From an uncultured Alphaproteobacteria bacterium (GTDB taxonomy: Bacteria; Pseudomonadota; Alphaproteobacteria; Rhizobiales; Aestuariivirgaceae): a DNA stretch of 64,000 nucleotides. Every line of letters begins with the position of its first letter. The stretch's first letter is position 1. Below are positions 53,186-62,287 of the stretch, piece after piece. Both the position numbers and the translations under genes were made by a program. The notes beneath the pieces are model-generated. The model saw only the letters and a program-made list of their open reading frames with translations, was not told where the DNA came from and made no database searches. Location: NCBI GenBank assembly GCA_937873445.1, contig CALMWF010000035.1:1-64000 (forward strand), given 5' to 3'.

Positions 53186-54418
53186 CTAGGTCCTTCCGTC
53201 CAGCCGCCGCGCCTCGCGCAATGACGGAAACCAGCGCGCCCACAGACCCGCCACGGCCATGGTGCCCAGCCCGCCCAGCACCACCGCCGCCACCGCGCCA
53301 ATGGCCGCCGCCACAAAACCGGCGCGGAATTCGCCCAGCTCATTGGATGCGCCGATGAACACCCGGTTCACTGCCGTCACCCGGCCGCGCACCGCGTCCG
53401 GTGTCCACAGCTGCATCAGCGTCTCGCGCACATAGACACTCACCATGTCGGAAGCCCCCATCAGCATCAGCGCGGCAATGGACAGCGGTATCCAGCGCGA
53501 CAGGCCGAACACCACCGTGAACAGGCCGAACAGCGCCACAAACACGAACAGCACATGGCCCGCCCGGTCGCGGATGCCGTGTTTGGCCAGCCACAGCGCC
53601 ACCACCAGCGCGCCAATGCCGGGGGCCGCCCGCAGCAGCCCAAGGCCCAGCGGCCCGGCGTGCAGAATGTCGCGCGCATAGACCGGCATCAGCGCCACGG
53701 CACCCCCCAGCAGCACTGCAAACAGGTCAAGCGATATGGCCCCCAGCACGATCTTTTCTGAACGGATGAAGCGGAACCCGGCAAACAGCGTTTCGAGGCT
53801 TGCCGGCTCCTTCCGCCCCTCCCGGCCCTTCACCGGGCCAATCAGCATCACTGATACCGCCGCCAGTCCGATCAGCGCCGCCGCCGTGCTATAGGCCACC
53901 AGCCCCGACACGCCATAGAGCAGGCCGCCCAGCACCGGCCCCATGATGGTGCCTGCCTGCCAGGTCATGGACGACAGCGAAATGCCATGGGCAATGGCCT
54001 CGCGCGGCAAAAGGTTGGGGGCCAGCGCATCGGCAGCCGGGTTGAGAAAGGCCCGCGCCACCCCCAGTGTGGCGAGAATGGCGAAGATGGGCCACACCAC
54101 GCTGGGTGATGTGGCAGTGAACACGAACAGGGCCGCCGCGCAGGCCGCCTCCAGCGCCAGGCACAGCGCCATGATGAGGCGGCGGCTGAACCGGTCGGCG
54201 GCCAGCCCCGTCAGCAGCACCAGAAACAAGGGCGGCAGAAACTGCACCAGCCCGGCGAGGCCAAGATCGGCCGGGTTGCGGCTGATGTCATAGATCTGCC
54301 AGCCCACCGACACCGACATGATCTGCACGGCAAAGCCCGCCAGCCCCACCGCAAGGAGATAGAACACATAGGCGCGATGATGCAGCGCATTGGCAGAGGG
54401 GGGCGGCGTGTCGGTCAT
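53186..54418 (-). CDS. MFS transporter (EntS-like exporter type)
   Basis: 410 residues with about eleven or twelve predicted membrane segments. It resembles the EntS/BcrA-type MFS group of small-molecule exporters: VQIMSVSVGWQIYDISRNPADLGLAGLVQFLPP near the N-terminus (noted in part), and GLAADRFSRRLIMALC. The start MTDTPPPSAN is used. It is downstream of the receptor genes on the same strand, but a terminator at 54455 separates it from them, so it is probably not part of that cassette. Confidence 0.83.
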   Translation of the reverse strand: MTDTPPPSANALHHRAYVFYLLAVGLAGFAVQIMSVSVGWQIYDISRNPADLGLAGLVQFLPPLFLVLLTGLAADRFSRRLIMALCLALEAACAAALFVFTATSPSVVWPIFAILATLGVARAFLNPAADALAPNLLPREAIAHGISLSSMTWQAGTIMGPVLGGLLYGVSGLVAYSTAAALIGLAAVSVMLIGPVKGREGRKEPASLETLFAGFRFIRSEKIVLGAISLDLFAVLLGGAVALMPVYARDILHAGPLGLGLLRAAPGIGALVVALWLAKHGIRDRAGHVLFVFVALFGLFTVVFGLSRWIPLSIAALMLMGASDMVSVYVRETLMQLWTPDAVRGRVTAVNRVFIGASNELGEFRAGFVAAAIGAVAAVVLGGLGTMAVAGLWARWFPSLREARRLDGRT

Positions 54419-54454
54419 GGGAGGCCGCCTGTGCCACAACCCCCCTGCCCTGTC

Positions 54455-54488
54455 AAAGCAAAGGAGGCGGAGCCAGCGCCCCGCCTCC
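54455..54488 (-). terminator. Rho-independent terminator after the second receptor gene
   Basis: On the minus strand an 8-bp stem GGAGGCGG/CCGCCTCC (54463-54470 with 54481-54488) and a 10-base loop is followed by TTTGCTTT (54455-54462). It lies 18 bases past the receptor stop and ends the copper-type cassette before the MFS gene. Confidence 0.7.
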
Positions 54489-54506
54489 CCCATTCATGGC
54501 CCGGGT

Positions 54507-56708
54507 TCAGAAGTCGACCGCGAAACCCGCATAAATGGTGCGCCCCGGCCCCGGCACATTGTCCTTGGCCTCGCCCAGGAAGGTCGGCGCGATCTCATGC
54601 CCGCCCAGCGGCGTCTCGTAATAGCTGTCGAGAATATTGTCGACGCCAGCCGTCACATGGAAGCGTTCATAGTTCCACGTGCTCTGCCAGTTGAGCAGCG
54701 CATAGGCCTCGGTGGTCAGTTCCTTGCGGTCGGCGTCCACCTTGGTCTTGGCGGTCACAAACTGCAGCGACAGTGTGTTGCTCCAGATGTCACCCTTCTG
54801 CTCCAGCGCCACGCGCCCGTTAAAGGGCATCATGTGATAGAGATTGCCACCCGTGTCCTTGTTCTTGCCGCGCACCACCGACAGTGAACCCGACAGGGCC
54901 AGTTCGCCCACCGGCGATTCCTTCGCCAGCCGCACCCGGCCCCAGGCGTCGAAACCATACATTTCGGCGTCATGGTTCACGAATTGCAGGTTGGAGAAGC
55001 TTCCCGCCGGTGCCGCGGTGGAATCGTTGACAAACCTCACCCCGATGTAATCGTCCACATAGGAGTAGAACGGCGACACCGACAGGCTCCAGGCGTCATC
55101 CGCCGCATCCTTCAGCGTAGCGGTGATGGAGAAGTTGTGCGCCACCTCCGGATCGACATCGAGGTTGCCCATATAGCCGTTGCCGTCGCCAAACCAGCCG
55201 ATCATGTTCTTCGACATCTGGCCGGGCATGGTGTTGGCCGTGCTCCACACATAGCGCTCATAGAAATTGGGCGAGCGCGTCTTGCGGGCATAGCCGCCGT
55301 TCAGCGTGAAATTATCGGACGGCTTGTAGGTCAGCATCGCCGTGGCATCGAAGTTCACGTCGGTCTTGTCGTGGTCCTTGGCGTTGAAGGCCGCTGCGTC
55401 GGCGCCATAGCCCATCGCCGGGTTGACGTTGTAGCCCTGCACATCGCCGGTGTTCATCCACACGATGTCATTGCGCACGCCAACCAGGGCCGACCATTGT
55501 TCGCTTAGCTTCTTGTCCCATTCGATGAAGGTGCCCAGCCGCGTGCGCTCACCGTTATTGATAAGCTGATAGGTGTCGCAACACATGCCGGGCTTTCCCA
55601 CCACCGGCGGCCACCATTCATCCAGCAGCTGGCGGTGCAGCTCGTTGCCGATCTTGAGGGTGCTGCCATCGTCCATGCTGTGGGTGAGCGACAGCTTGTA
55701 GCCGAAATCCTGGCCCTCCGTATCCATGGGCATGTCACGCCCGGCCGGGTTGTTCAGATACTTCTTGTCCTGAAGATAGTTCATGTTGTGGCGGACATAG
55801 TTGTAATAGGCCAGCGCGTTGACGAGGCCCCAGTCCGTGTCCTTCTCCTGGGCCGCGCTGATGCCGAAGGACTTGTTGTAATTCATGTCCATGCGCTGGT
55901 TCATGTATTCCTGTTCAGGCATGTATTGCCCACGCGCCTTCAGCGTGGTCACACCAAGATCACTCTTCAGGCCCAGCGTCACCTCGTGGTTCTGTGTCTC
56001 GAAGTGATTGGACAATACCTTGTCACCATGGCCGTCTTTAAAGTCGCTGCCCTTGGCCCAGTCGCCGGAATAGCTCAGGCTCGCCGTTTCGCCGTGAATT
56101 TCGGCATGCGCGCCAGCACTCACCACATGGCCGTTAAAGCGATAACCGGCATGAACATTGCCCGACCATGCGCTCGGCGGTGCGTCGATCTTGCCGGGGA
56201 TTACGCCGGGATCATCACTGGTGAATTTCGGCTTGTTGGTGACGATGGCAATGCCGCCGCCAATGGCGTCGCCGCCTGAGGAAACGCCCGAAACCGGCAG
56301 CGATACCTTAACGCTGCTGATTGTCCTCGGATCGATATAGGACAAGGGCGGGTTCATATGATTGGCACAGGCCGAAGTGATGTCGTTGCCATTGATGGTC
56401 TGGCGCAGCCGGTCATCATTGAAGCCTCGCAGAACCGGCAGTTGCGAAACAGGACCCGCCTGCTGGATCTGCAGGCCCGGCGCCACATTCTGCAGCACCT
56501 CCGCCGTGGACGGCTGCGTCACCGCCATCTTCTTCACCACATCGGGCTTCAGGGAGATCTGCCCGGTGGTGGTGATGGCCTCCCCCGTCTCGGTATAGAC
56601 GGTGATCTGGGGGATCTGATACGCATCCTGGGCCGCGCCAACCGTGGCACCGGCCACCAGTGCTGCGGTCCCAACGCCCAGCAGGGCCATCATTCGAGTC
56701 TTTGTCAT
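54507..56708 (-). CDS. TonB-dependent receptor, OprC/NosA-like (probable copper receptor 1)
   Basis: 733 residues: signal peptide (about 1-26), a TonB-box-like ITVYT near residue 35, a plug (about 55-165) and a 22-strand-type barrel ending in YAGFAVDF. The plug has CANHM (Cys114, Met118) in SACANHMNPPLSYIDP, and the barrel has HNM (His307, Met309). CxxxM plus HxM forms the copper site of Pseudomonas OprC, so copper import is predicted from those motifs. A GAGGACAG ribosome-binding site precedes the ATG; longer in-frame codons upstream are non-coding in character. It is the last gene of the cassette, 115 bases after receptor 2. Confidence 0.85.
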   Translation of the reverse strand: MTKTRMMALLGVGTAALVAGATVGAAQDAYQIPQITVYTETGEAITTTGQISLKPDVVKKMAVTQPSTAEVLQNVAPGLQIQQAGPVSQLPVLRGFNDDRLRQTINGNDITSACANHMNPPLSYIDPRTISSVKVSLPVSGVSSGGDAIGGGIAIVTNKPKFTSDDPGVIPGKIDAPPSAWSGNVHAGYRFNGHVVSAGAHAEIHGETASLSYSGDWAKGSDFKDGHGDKVLSNHFETQNHEVTLGLKSDLGVTTLKARGQYMPEQEYMNQRMDMNYNKSFGISAAQEKDTDWGLVNALAYYNYVRHNMNYLQDKKYLNNPAGRDMPMDTEGQDFGYKLSLTHSMDDGSTLKIGNELHRQLLDEWWPPVVGKPGMCCDTYQLINNGERTRLGTFIEWDKKLSEQWSALVGVRNDIVWMNTGDVQGYNVNPAMGYGADAAAFNAKDHDKTDVNFDATAMLTYKPSDNFTLNGGYARKTRSPNFYERYVWSTANTMPGQMSKNMIGWFGDGNGYMGNLDVDPEVAHNFSITATLKDAADDAWSLSVSPFYSYVDDYIGVRFVNDSTAAPAGSFSNLQFVNHDAEMYGFDAWGRVRLAKESPVGELALSGSLSVVRGKNKDTGGNLYHMMPFNGRVALEQKGDIWSNTLSLQFVTAKTKVDADRKELTTEAYALLNWQSTWNYERFHVTAGVDNILDSYYETPLGGHEIAPTFLGEAKDNVPGPGRTIYAGFAVDF

Positions 56709-56823
56709 TGCCTGTCCTCTGTTTTGGCGGGCTGAAAATAATGTCAGCGCGCTGTTCATCACGTTACGGGTTGGTGTTGTTGCGGCGGCACCACTGGGCG
56801 CGATGCCGCCGGGTTTTGTGCGT

Positions 56824-59250
56824 CTAGAAGGAATAGCTGGTGCTGAGATAGAACGACCGTCCCGGCCCCGGAACGCCCGTGCCATACATCGAGGCCGTGC
56901 CGCGCGATCCGGTGGAAGCACCACCCGGAGTCATCAGGCCGACATTGCCCACTTCCCCCTGGAACGACATGGAGTTGCCCTCGCCCACATAGGCACCGCC
57001 GAGCGGCAGGGTGTATTTCTTGTCGAGAATGTTCTCGACGCCGAAATTGAGCTTCCAGTTGTTCAGGGTATAGCTGCTGCGCAGATTGAGCAGGCTATAG
57101 GCCGGGGTGTGCAGTTCGTTGCGCATGGAGGACACATGGTCCTTGCCATCCACCATGACAAACTCCAGGGCGTTATCCCAGCCATTCAGCCTGTGGGCCA
57201 GCGTCACCTTGCCGTTCAGCGGCATGATGTTATAGAGCCCGTCATGCGTCACGGTGTTGACGCCGCGGGCATAGTTCAGGCTGCCGCGCAGGGCAAAATC
57301 ACCCAGCGAGGACTTGGCCAGAGGCATGCGCACAGCCACATCAATACCGCCGATATTGGCGGTCTGATTGACATATTTCAGCATCACAAACTGGTTCGGC
57401 CCGGTGGTTGGAACGCTGCCCGTGCCCGTGACTGTCGGATCAGCGGGAAGATTGGTCGTCATGTTCCACTGCGCGGCATCGATGTAGTTTGAGACGTGGG
57501 TGAAGTAGGGCGAAACCGTAAAACCGGTTTCGTCATCATCGCTGCGCCAGTCAGCCGTGAAGCTGATGGTGCGTGACGTTTCCTTCTTCAGGTTTGGATC
57601 ACCCATATAGCCATTGCCGTCGCCGACAAAGTTGTTCATCTCCAGGGCCATAAGCCCACGCGACCAGTCATAGCGTTCATACAGGTTCGGCGACCGGTTC
57701 TTCTGCGCCAGACCAAGATCAAGCTTCAGATTGTCCTGTGGCTTGTAGGTCACGATGGACGACAGATCGAGGTTATAATCAACCCTGCTGCGATCCATGT
57801 TGTTGAAGTCAGCCGTGCTGCCCACCGAACTGGTCGTATAGAAGGTGCTGTAGCCCTGAACAGGACCGGTGTCGGTGGCAACCCGTTCCAGACGCACACC
57901 GAGCAGCGACTGCCACTTGTCATTCCATTGCGATTCCCACTCGCCGAAGGCGGCCAGCCGGTCGCGCTCACCGTTATTGATGTTCCAGAACGTGTCCGGC
58001 GCCATGCCGCCCCGGCAATTCGCCACACCGGCCGTGTAGCCGCAATCGGGGGACGGCGGCCACCAGTCGTCGAGACGATAGAACTGTGCCTCGGCGCCCA
58101 GCCGCAGCGTATCACTGGCTGAAACCTCAATGTCCGATTTCAGTGACGCGCCAGTGGTATGGGTTTTGGTATACATCGGCATGCCCATCACATTCATGGG
58201 GCCCGACGGTGTTGCCAGCCAGCCGTACCACTTGTTGCGGTCGTCGCCGAAATCCATGAAGTGATCGACATACTGGTGATAGGCCTGTGCCTCCAGCTTG
58301 CCCCAGCGGAATTTTTCCTCCCAGCGCAGGTTGCCCATCAGCGACGTGTTGTCGAGCATGTCCATGCGCTGGTTGGGATACCACTCATAGGGAATTTTCT
58401 GCAGACCAAGCTTGAGATCGAGAAGACTGTCGCTGTCCGTCCAGGCAAGGTCGACCGAATGGTTGGTGGCCTCATAGGCGGATGAGCCAACGGTCTTGCC
58501 CGGCAGCAGCGGCGTGTTGAGCGGCGGCACATAGGCCAGGGTGAAATTCTTGTAGTGCCCGCCCGCCTTGTAATCATCGGACTTCGCATAGGCGCCGTTA
58601 TAGGTCAGGCTCAGACTGTCGGTGGCCAGCGTGGTGTTGAGGTTGCCGCCAAAGCCATTGCCGTTGGAGCGGAAGAAGGCACCGACGTTGCCGGTCACCA
58701 GTGTGCCGCCCTCCTCCTTGGCGTTTTTGGCTGTCGCCTCGCCGGCAAATTTCGGCCGGGCCGACTTCACCGCAATGGTGCCACCGATGGCATCGCCGGA
58801 AACACTCACCGGGGCCACGCCGGTCCACACCTTCACCTCGCCCACGCTGGAGGGATCAATGTAGGACAGGGCCGGATTCATGTGATTGGGACAGGACGCA
58901 ACAATGTCCATGCCATCCACCTTGGTGCGCAGCCGGTCATCGGCCAGGCCACGCATGGTGGGCAGGCTGGAAACACCACCCGCGCTGTAGACATTCACCC
59001 CCAGCACATCCTGCAGCAGGGCCGTCGTGTCACTGGTGGTCGCCCGCTTCTGCTCAATCTGGCTCCGGGTCAGCGTGGTGCTGCCCATCTTGGTGGTGCC
59101 GCTGCTGTCAGCATCGGTCTTGCCCGCCTGATTGGTGTAAACCGTGATCTGGGGAATTTGATAGGCATCCTGCGCCAGTGTCGAATGTGCGTTCAGCATC
59201 ATCGCCGTGGCCCCCGCCCCCGCGAGGGCGATGATCTTTGTCCGTGTCAT
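56824..59250 (-). CDS. TonB-dependent receptor, OprC/NosA-like (probable copper receptor 2)
   Basis: 808 residues: signal peptide (about 1-26), the same DAYQIPQITVYT mature N-terminus as receptor 1, a plug (about 60-165) and a barrel ending STSYSF. CPNHM (Cys120, Met124) and HFM (His330, Met332) again give the OprC-type CxxxM/HxM pair. Both receptors also share an NQRMDM loop. It is a divergent paralogue of receptor 1 with a longer loop set, including an LPADPTVTGTG insertion near residue 600. A clear AAAGGACAG ribosome-binding site precedes the start. tonB lies 72 bases upstream on the same strand. Confidence 0.85.
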   Translation of the reverse strand: MTRTKIIALAGAGATAMMLNAHSTLAQDAYQIPQITVYTNQAGKTDADSSGTTKMGSTTLTRSQIEQKRATTSDTTALLQDVLGVNVYSAGGVSSLPTMRGLADDRLRTKVDGMDIVASCPNHMNPALSYIDPSSVGEVKVWTGVAPVSVSGDAIGGTIAVKSARPKFAGEATAKNAKEEGGTLVTGNVGAFFRSNGNGFGGNLNTTLATDSLSLTYNGAYAKSDDYKAGGHYKNFTLAYVPPLNTPLLPGKTVGSSAYEATNHSVDLAWTDSDSLLDLKLGLQKIPYEWYPNQRMDMLDNTSLMGNLRWEEKFRWGKLEAQAYHQYVDHFMDFGDDRNKWYGWLATPSGPMNVMGMPMYTKTHTTGASLKSDIEVSASDTLRLGAEAQFYRLDDWWPPSPDCGYTAGVANCRGGMAPDTFWNINNGERDRLAAFGEWESQWNDKWQSLLGVRLERVATDTGPVQGYSTFYTTSSVGSTADFNNMDRSRVDYNLDLSSIVTYKPQDNLKLDLGLAQKNRSPNLYERYDWSRGLMALEMNNFVGDGNGYMGDPNLKKETSRTISFTADWRSDDDETGFTVSPYFTHVSNYIDAAQWNMTTNLPADPTVTGTGSVPTTGPNQFVMLKYVNQTANIGGIDVAVRMPLAKSSLGDFALRGSLNYARGVNTVTHDGLYNIMPLNGKVTLAHRLNGWDNALEFVMVDGKDHVSSMRNELHTPAYSLLNLRSSYTLNNWKLNFGVENILDKKYTLPLGGAYVGEGNSMSFQGEVGNVGLMTPGGASTGSRGTASMYGTGVPGPGRSFYLSTSYSF

Positions 59251-59322
59251 GGTCTGTCCTTTGTCGCTCTCTGTTCATGTTGTTGGACAGGGCCTCTGTC
59301 AGCCGACCCCGACGGATTGTTG

Positions 59323-60402
59323 TCATTCAAAATTGATCACCACCGAGAACCGCCCCGGCAGTTGCACCCCCGCTGGCACGGCTCCGAAGCCGCCGCGCAC
59401 TGCCGCCATGGCCGCTGCCCGTGTGGACGCCGTCCCTGCGGCCGAAACCCCCACCGCCTGCCCCCCCGGCGTGATGCCGAAACTCACCACCACCCGGCCC
59501 TCTGGCGCGCTGCGCGACAGGCGCGAGATGATGGTTGACCGCACCCGGCCCAGATAATCCCGGCGGGCCCGCATGGCTTGCAACGAGGCGGCCTGGCGCG
59601 CTGTGCTGGCAGCACGCGAAACACCACCCCTGGGCTTTGGCCTGCTCGCCGCCTTCACCGGCCTTGTGCTGCGCACAATGGTGGTGCGTTTGGCTTCGGG
59701 CCTCGGCTGAACCGCCGGCTTCACCACGGGCTCCGGCACGTCCGGAATGGCGAATTGCGCCGGGGTGATGGGCGGCAGTTCCGGCGGTGCCGGAACCTCC
59801 ACCGCTTCCGGCGGGGCAAGCTCCGCGCTCAGATCCGTGAGCTCCGGCGGCGGTGGCACGGAAATCTCCTCCACCGCCGGGGCAGCACTCACCTCTTCCG
59901 GGGCGGGCGTGTCGGCCACCAGTTCCACCGTCACCACCATGGGCGGCGACAGCACGTCGTCATCGTTGCCGAAATGGGCCGGGGTTTCGCGCGCCACTGC
60001 AACAACGGCTGCCGCCGTGATGGCGGTGGCCAGGATGAACCCCGGCCAGCGCCGCGCCAGCCGCGCCACCGGCAGCGACAGGCGTTCGCCCGCCGCCGCC
60101 AGCACATTCCGGATGGTAAGGCTCGCCACGTCGCGGCTTGGCACCACCGGTCCCAGCGCGTCGCGCAGCGTGCGCCGGAACGGCAGAATGGCTGCCCCGG
60201 CACCGGCCGCCGAAGAACCGTCCACGATGGCAGAAGCCACCTCTGTCACCTCCCGATGGGCACGGAAGGCAAAGAGGCTGATGGCCGACGCCATCGTGGA
60301 CGGAGGGCAGCCAGCCCCGTCATCCCGCCGGGCAATGAACGGCAGAACGGCGGTAGCCGGAAGACTTTCGGCCGGCAGACAAACCGGACCAGACAAGGTC
60401 AT
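59323..60402 (-). CDS. tonB: TonB family protein with long cytoplasmic N-terminus
   Basis: About 359 residues. A single membrane segment (about 119-138, GFILATAITAAAVVAVA) is preceded by roughly 115 residues that look cytoplasmic, unlike ordinary TonB, which begins with its anchor. Then come a Pro/Glu-rich periplasmic spacer (PPPPELTDLSAELAPPEAVEVPAPPELPP, noted in part), a basic stretch, and a C-terminal TonB domain (GRVVVSFGITPGGQAVGVSAAG; PGRFSVVINFE). The start MTLSGPVC is uncertain; no strong ribosome-binding site. Its place just before the receptors suggests it energises them specifically. Confidence 0.78.
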   Translation of the reverse strand: MTLSGPVCLPAESLPATAVLPFIARRDDGAGCPPSTMASAISLFAFRAHREVTEVASAIVDGSSAAGAGAAILPFRRTLRDALGPVVPSRDVASLTIRNVLAAAGERLSLPVARLARRWPGFILATAITAAAVVAVARETPAHFGNDDDVLSPPMVVTVELVADTPAPEEVSAAPAVEEISVPPPPELTDLSAELAPPEAVEVPAPPELPPITPAQFAIPDVPEPVVKPAVQPRPEAKRTTIVRSTRPVKAASRPKPRGGVSRAASTARQAASLQAMRARRDYLGRVRSTIISRLSRSAPEGRVVVSFGITPGGQAVGVSAAGTASTRAAAMAAVRGGFGAVPAGVQLPGRFSVVINFE

Positions 60403-60488
60403 GGACGTAACCCGGATGAGTTCCCCGGCGCCGGACCTCACGTCCGGACGCCATGCGCAATGTCACCTGGCCGTGGCCAGTTGACGGT

Positions 60489-60899
60489 TCAGACGACGGG
60501 GAAAAGGACCGGGGGGCCGCGCGAGCGCGCCTCAATCACAGCGGTGGCCAGCGGCGCGCGCTCGCTCTCCACCGTGAACACCACCGGCACAACCGTGGCG
60601 GTGTAGGTGATTTCGGGGGCTGCGGTGTCAAGGCCGGGGGCGGCGGACAGCATGCAGACATCGCACATGGCCGCCATGAAGGAGGCTTTGCCGTCGTCGC
60701 CATTGCCGTGACAGTAATCCAGCGTGATGCCATCAGGCAGATCGGCCTGGGCCACCGCCTTCTGCACCATGGTGCTGTAGGCGGCGTCGGCTTCCTGCGC
60801 ATTGGTAAGCTTGCACGACCAGCCAACCGTCACCGCCACCAGCGCATAAAGCGCCAGCACGACAACGCGCCAATGGGTGTGCCGCAGTCCTTGCATCAT
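60489..60899 (-). CDS. DUF2946-type Cys/Met-containing membrane-anchored protein
   Basis: About 136 residues: an N-terminal hydrophobic segment (about 9-27), then a short domain with SFMAAMCDVCMLSAAPG (CxxC flanked by Met) and an upstream LDYCHGNGDD. DUF2946 proteins commonly occur beside copper-linked outer-membrane receptors; direct metal binding is unproven. It is the first gene of the cassette, 86 bases before tonB, and divergent from icd. The 176-base divergent region holds no obvious metal-regulator box that I can recognise. Confidence 0.65.
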   Translation of the reverse strand: MMQGLRHTHWRVVVLALYALVAVTVGWSCKLTNAQEADAAYSTMVQKAVAQADLPDGITLDYCHGNGDDGKASFMAAMCDVCMLSAAPGLDTAAPEITYTATVVPVVFTVESERAPLATAVIEARSRGPPVLFPVV

Positions 60900-61075
60900 C
60901 CTCAATCCTGCCAGATCGCTATCGCTGCGCAAAACAGGTCAAAACGCCACAGGCCGAAAGAATAACCGGAGTCTCAATTGCTTCTATTCATACGGCTTCC
61001 GTCGCATTGGACGCTCCCCCGTCTCGCTGCTAGAAGGCCTGATCACTCAGCTAACACCCAACAGGCAGGGCGCAC

Positions 61076-62287
61076 ATGACCAAAATCAAGGTGGCAAAAC
61101 CCGTTGTCGAACTCGACGGCGACGAGATGACCCGCATCATCTGGGATCTCATCAAGACCAAGCTGATCAAGCCCTATCTTGACGTTGACCTGCATTATTA
61201 TGACCTGTCGGTGGAAAACCGCGACGCCACCAGTGACCAGGTGACGGTGGATGCCGCCAACGCCATCAAGAAACATGGTGTCGGCGTCAAATGCGCCACC
61301 ATCACGCCGGATGAGGCGCGGGTGAAGGAATTCAACCTGAAGCAGATGTGGAAATCGCCCAACGGCACCATCCGCAACATCCTCGGCGGCGTCATCTTCC
61401 GTGAACCCATCATCTGCAGGAATGTGCCCCGCCTCGTTCCCGGCTGGACCCAGCCCATCGTCATCGGCCGCCATGCCTTCGGCGACCAGTATCGCGCCAC
61501 TGACTTCACCTTCCCCGGCAAGGGCACGCTGACCATCAAATTCGTCGGCGAAGACGGCACGGTGATCGAGAAGGAAGTGTTCAAGTCGCCGGGTGCCGGT
61601 GTCGCCATGGCCATGTACAACCTCGATGAATCGATCAAGGAATTCGCCCGCGCCAGCTTCAACTATGGCCTGATGCGCAATTACCCCGTCTATCTGTCCA
61701 CCAAGAACACCATTCTCAAGGCCTATGACGGGCGCTTCAAGGACATCTTCCAGGAGATTTTCGACGCCGAGTTCAAGGCCGAATTCGACAAGCGCAAGCT
61801 CACCTATGAGCACCGCCTGATCGATGACATGGTGGCCTCGGCCCTGAAGTGGACCGGCGGCTATGTCTGGGCCTGCAAGAACTATGACGGCGACGTGCAG
61901 TCCGATACGGTGGCGCAGGGCTTTGGCTCGCTTGGTCTCATGACCTCGGTGCTGATGACGCCCGACGGCAAGACGGTGGAGGCCGAAGCGGCCCACGGCA
62001 CCGTCACCCGCCACTACCGCCTGCACCAGCAGGGCAAGCAGACCTCCACCAACTCCGCTGCCTCCATCTTCGCCTGGACCGGCGGGCTGAAGCATCGCGC
62101 CAAGCTTGACGACAATGCCGCACTGGCCCGCTTTGCCGACACGCTGGAAAAGACCGTGGTGGCCACCATCGAGGCCGGCCAGATGACCAAGGATCTCGCC
62201 GTGCTGGTGGGTCCGGACCAGAACTGGCTGACCACCGAGGGCTTCCTCGACGCGGTTGACCAAAACCTGCAAAGGGCACTGGCCTGA
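61076..62287 (+). CDS. icd: Isocitrate dehydrogenase, NADP-dependent (eukaryotic-type)
   Basis: 403 residues: [45 protein letters not shown] (substrate Ser/Asn), and [20 protein letters not shown]. This is the homodimeric type II NADP-isocitrate dehydrogenase found in many alphaproteobacteria and in mitochondria. It converts isocitrate to 2-oxoglutarate and supplies NADPH. A kinase-like gene follows after 26 bases on the same strand and may be co-transcribed. Confidence 0.97.

Follow-up and report, generated by a model that had tools for sequence, protein, structure and literature searches.

Four genes on the minus strand, at positions 54455..60899 of the 64,000-nucleotide stretch of DNA analysed here (the window; contig CALMWF010000035.1, from an uncultured alphaproteobacterium of the family Aestuariivirgaceae), raise the question of how copper uptake might be controlled, energised and assembled at a single locus. 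In gene order they are a cruR-like open reading frame (ORF), a TonB-like gene and the genes of two outer-membrane receptors, R1 and R2. The co-directional layout of the original prediction agrees with the ORF coordinates, the intergenic gaps being 86, 72 and 115 nt in gene order, and co-transcription starting with the cruR-like ORF, the first of the four same-strand genes, is predicted from this layout. We consider it quite probable that the cassette serves copper uptake under starvation, as an operon of the known CruR-OprC kind, in which the gene order, the transducer and the apparently acquired second receptor are the unusual points; no published cruR-tonB-receptor-receptor order was found in the literature listings searched.

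Judging from the literature on related systems, ribosomes translating the leader would stall at its RGPP motif when copper is scarce, and transcription or translation of the downstream genes would continue; copper bound to the nascent CxxC motif would relieve the stall and shut the operon off. The second gene would provide a TonB/TolA-type energy transducer, and the third and fourth genes OprC-like outer-membrane receptors binding copper by CxxxM-HxM residues, both of which the transducer would open through an identical TonB box. R2 would be the receptor shared with congeners, and R1 would have joined later from another lineage.

The probable CruR-type leader and its distribution

The first gene (60489..60899, minus strand, 136 aa) is a DUF2946-type ORF with a hydrophobic N-terminal segment (residues 12-28), Cys63, CDVC (79-82), RGPP (127-130) and a six-residue tail, CDVC and RGPP being spaced by 44 residues. 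Bordetella CruR is a DUF2946 leader ORF in which copper is sensed by CxxC and the ribosome is stalled by a C-terminal RAPP, 45 residues away; copper lifts the stall, leading to Rho-dependent termination (PMC9426467). The B. pertussis cruR-bfrG(crtA)-bp2921 operon (PMC9426467, PMC12914433) resembles the present one in several features: a DUF2946-type leader in first place, CxxC and, at the same spacing, R[A/G]PP at the C-terminal end, and a TonB-dependent receptor in the operon. The arrest motif is RGPP here and RAPP there; in PMC12992588, arrest by RGPP equals or exceeds that by RAPP in several contexts, and such small arrest ORFs are enriched in front of copper genes and genes of TonB-dependent receptors.

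Spacing of 44 residues and the RGPP form were also found in the leaders of two congeners, G014 and G007, both of which keep CxxC, and the sequences of the three leaders diverge after PP. Compared with G014, five of the seven changed codons in the CxxC region are synonymous and RGPP is kept mostly by synonymous changes; in the six-residue tail, which is not conserved, none of the five changed codons is synonymous. Conservation up to RGPP, followed by a tail free to change, is as expected if the functional part ends at PP. Because CxxC, the 44-residue spacing and RGPP near the stop codon match CruR, the earlier view of the DUF2946 gene as a Cys/Met-containing uptake component is not supported: from these features and the Bordetella precedent, the first gene is probably a CruR-type regulatory leader and a probable copper sensor.

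When the first 83 loci were searched for CruR and TonB relatives with single sequences as queries, the window's own genes alone were returned, and relatives were therefore sought by motif and profile. Of the loci of 381 confirmed R1 relatives in named genomes, the 80 best were retained, 73 of them testable for a leader (at least 1,500 nt upstream). A strict leader, defined as a CxxC-R[AG]PP-stop ORF whose end lies no more than 1.7 kb upstream, precedes the receptor in 30 of these 73 loci; the motif gave 40 hits in 217 kb of upstream sequence vs 14 in 1,900 kb elsewhere, the CxxC-R[AG]PP spacing being 42-47 in the upstream hits, and 14 of 15 aligned leader members matched the DUF2946 profile at E <= 0.1 (best 1.1e-20). 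Within the class, R2 was matched at E <= 1e-30 in 11 of 385 genomes, the window's own included. The ten others were examined: six of the eight close relatives (E <= 8.2e-120) have a strict leader and two a variant (L123:4146-4559 and L130:3815-4237), in which the R[AG]PP end is kept, CPYA replaces CxxC and the second Cys is gone, and no leader was seen with the two weaker relatives. The CPYA leaders may sense differently. In L130, another alphaproteobacterium, a TonB gene (L130:7069-7836) lies directly 3' of the receptor, giving a leader-receptor-TonB order.

The region upstream of cruR (60900..61075, minus strand), probably containing the promoter and the 5' leader and shared with a divergent isocitrate dehydrogenase gene, has blocks conserved with G014 in pairwise alignment. 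No sigma-70 consensus promoter was found upstream of cruR, and the best candidate for a Fur-type box there is poor, matching at 9 of 19 positions, vs 13 elsewhere in the window (a weak test). By folding, the 86-nt gap between cruR and the tonB-like gene (60403..60488, minus strand) contains two predicted hairpins, similarly placed in the window and in G014, the z values being -0.5 (not significant) and -2.2, respectively. These hairpins raise the opposite mode of action, in which copper would promote stalling, a hairpin would open translation of the next gene and the operon would be copper-induced. PMC9973294 describes such a system in Rhodobacter capsulatus cutFOG, a copper-related alphaproteobacterial operon that likewise has a DUF2946-type leader, CutF, followed by a short gap with a stem-loop, and the window is alphaproteobacterial-like. 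However, in that description CutF has CxxxC, copper promotes expression and the gene controlled is a copper-detoxifying multicopper oxidase, whereas the present ORF has CxxC and R[AG]PP and heads import genes; copper-induced import would be harmful, and the window hairpins are insignificant. We regard a CutF-like leader as very unlikely and keep to the CruR-type switch. No Rfam match at E <= 1 was found in 54300-61200. A terminator-like hairpin is present 3' of R2 (54464..54482, minus strand), as first noted; the description of this terminator as clear was dropped as evidence, such sites being no commoner than in shuffles (6 in the region vs 4.7 +/- 2.5).

The two OprC-like receptors

R1 (56824..59250, minus strand, 808 aa) and R2 (54507..56708, minus strand, 733 aa) are, by sequence, relatives of Pseudomonas aeruginosa OprC, the only solved relative of either at E <= 0.001. 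The predicted structure of R1 has the OprC fold and OprC as its best structural match, at a distance of ~23% identity over the structural alignment. The CxxxM residues of the plug and the HxM residues of the barrel were found exactly where they had been placed (C120, M124, H330 and M332 in R1; C114, M118, H307 and M309 in R2); their columns coincide in the multiple alignment and align with CxxxM and HxM of OprC in phmmer alignments, fold and ligands both being features of OprC (PMC8610252). C, M, H and M occupy the four columns in 85 of 85 aligned receptors (81 from 80 fetched loci, R1, R2 and two from congeners), the C/M conservation being biased by CxxxM in one of six search patterns and the H/M conservation unbiased, and the four ligands are also kept in all eight close alphaproteobacterial relatives.

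ORFs for copper chaperones of the PCuAC type share the receptor's strand in 33 of the 80 related loci, and SCO1-like ORFs do so in 5 (identities assigned by Pfam on example ORFs); because of its leader, PCuAC-like and SCO1-like neighbours, the receptor family can be said to travel with copper genes. In Pseudomonas, too, a cruR homologue stands upstream of oprC. Import of another cargo (heme, zinc or a copper chelate), with the CxxxM-HxM residues incidental, would sit badly with the completely conserved ligands, with OprC alone among the solved relatives by sequence and with the copper chaperone neighbours, and we consider it highly improbable. The same ligands and neighbours, together with the OprC matches, support copper-type import and bear out the copper-type, OprC-like character first proposed for both receptors, copper binding and transport themselves being what we infer from the literature. 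In comparison with B. pertussis, the cassette has two OprC-type receptors instead of one of CrtA type, CrtA being without conserved Cys or Met; its second gene is of the TonB/TolA type, and no PepSY_TM gene is present.

Tandem modules were observed at Rhodoferax-type loci (L016:3102-5140, L011:4683-6828 and L025:4539-6768, the chaperones of L025 named by eye), where a leader, a PCuAC gene, a second leader and a second PCuAC-like gene come before the receptor. At L055:762-2579, a leader ORF stands before SCO1/SenC and NosL-type genes, a few kb upstream of the receptor's own leader.

Origin of R1 and points against the reading

In G014 the same neighbourhood reads rpsD, murI, a major facilitator superfamily (MFS) gene, R2, tonB, cruR and icd, and has no R1; G007 carries cruR-tonB-R2 at another genomic place. 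The receptors were found in only 3 of 37 genus genomes (the host, G014 and G007), the transducer co-occurring in the same three, so that the receptor pair and the four-gene order do not form a conserved unit. In a 38-row tree, R2, the receptor common to G014 and G007, groups with theirs (100/100), and R1 pairs with the receptor of a Bradyrhizobium assembly, L004 (100/97), deep in a mainly betaproteobacterial clade. Since R1 is absent at the G014 locus and its body groups with the L004 clade, R1 seems to be a late arrival that combines the body of another receptor lineage with a signal peptide and TonB box of the resident type. The first 40 residues of R1 are 26/38 identical to the G014 receptor (76% at the nucleotide level) and the remainder 290/682; with L004 the pattern is reversed (14/40 and 435/737), and the switch at residue 40 has uncorrected Fisher p values of 0.002 and 0.005. 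The N-terminal 14-residue segment of R2 is the same as that of R1. The TonB box region AQDAYQIPQITVYT, from residue 26 of R1, is identical in both receptors though 6 of 13 checked codons differ, and among 327 receptor pairs with bodies less than 45% identical R1-R2 alone has 13/13 box residues (12 in R1-G014), which suggests that R1 either was given the resident TonB box or was selected for having it.

A recent duplication giving R1 and R2 was rejected on body identities and tree placement. An old tandem duplication in the genus, with R1 lost in G014 and the matching TonB boxes inherited, would fit the adjacency of R1 and R2 and their shared signal-peptide-like and TonB-box sequence, and the weak branches of the tree are compatible with all four cassette receptors on one side. 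Such an origin is at odds with the nesting of R1 six well-supported branches deep in its clade and with a body 59% identical to L004 and 40% to R2; we find it rather unlikely, and the late arrival of R1 is preferred.

Several observations weigh against a CruR-OprC operon with a late second receptor. The leader scores below the Pfam DUF2946 (PF11162) cut-off (15.9 vs 23.7 bits), 43 of the 73 testable loci yielded no strict leader ORF in the 1.7 kb upstream of the receptor, the cruR-tonB gap is 86 nt here vs 162 nt in B. pertussis, and a special C>G (Rho-site) signature was rejected, C>G stretches being present and cruR ranking 25th of 62 window genes. R1 and R2 reach 96.8 and 126.9 bits on the copper-receptor model TIGR01778, far below its cut-off of 472.45 and in this unlike OprC, and both score slightly higher, yet again below cut-off, on the heme-receptor model TIGR01785. 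The support for the mosaic comes from a stretch of 40 residues, of which the signal peptide makes up half (uncorrected Fisher p 0.002-0.03), and the start codon of L004, which bears on the mosaic, is uncertain.

The putative transducer and its possible motor

The second gene (59323..60402, minus strand, 359 aa; start codon chosen because MTLSGPV is conserved in G014) stays below all Pfam and NCBIfam cut-offs. Its product has a 118-aa N-terminal extension, a single membrane helix that lacks SxxxH, a D-box-like VTVELVAD (assigned by eye against the motif in PMC10907165), a proline-rich periplasmic linker after the helix and a C-terminal domain (263-359) of alpha-beta-beta-alpha-beta order. According to PMC12215075, PMC11658791 and PMC10907165, TonB and TolA, whose motors are ExbBD and TolQR, have the same helix, D-box, linker and C-terminal order, but the extension and the missing SxxxH are unlike them. 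On sequence and model, the second gene belongs to the TonB/TolA kind as a divergent member; the dedicated TonB originally predicted is retained as regards the kind, with the reservation that SxxxH is lacking and that the predicted C-terminal structure is nearer TolA domain III than TonB. A Protein Data Bank (PDB) search with a TonB-like profile gave DD-transpeptidase chains (E 0.09-0.31) and TonB (E 0.21-0.36), none significant. That it is a TolA/TonB-fold envelope protein of other function, not an energy transducer, we judge unlikely: the membrane helix, the D-box-like strand, the proline-rich linker and a C-terminal domain of TolA/TonB type follow one another in the correct order, the gene co-occurs with the receptors in the same 3 of 37 genus genomes, and TonB genes stand beside related receptors elsewhere.

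SxxxH is absent from the helix in all three cassette transducers (window, G014, G007): two have no His and that of G007 has one at the helix edge. Near related receptors, 19 proline-rich candidates were collected as TonB controls, 3 of which were dropped by eye as non-TonB-like, and 16 of the 16 scored have a helix His; the class sample comprised 31 loci, with a His in 25 of 30 scored. Inspected by eye, three of the five without it start in or near the proline-rich part and have no clear helix (L135, L138, L144), L150 has a His just outside the scored stretch and L157 truly lacks it. The only other plug-domain receptor found in the host belongs to a B12-type uptake cluster (L095:7302-12718, G000:C8; named by eye) that carries its own TonB with SxxxH; the host's TolA also has SxxxH.

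No ExbB/ExbD pair was found in the genome outside tolQR, the sole ExbD-family gene found lying in an apparent tolQRAB (L103:2469-5912, G000:C6), so the self-contained character claimed for the uptake system is unsupported. TolQR as the motor driving the transducer is a guess. A further, doubtful proposal is that loss of SxxxH cost the transducer its contact with ExbB/TolQ and left the D-box as the sole route by which TolQR might drive it, with copper co-controlling transducer and receptors and a foreign receptor recruited via the resident signal peptide and TonB box.

A vaguely defined cassette of DUF2946 plus receptors may thus be read as a concrete CruR-like copper switch whose arrest motif takes the RGPP form. 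The comparison of R1 and R2 suggests how an incoming receptor becomes compatible with a dedicated transducer, namely by a shared TonB box. A transducer without SxxxH, in a host whose sole ExbD-family gene found is in tolQR, bears on how force reaches TonB; if the proposal is true, it would be a natural test of force transmission via the D-box and not by membrane-helix contact.

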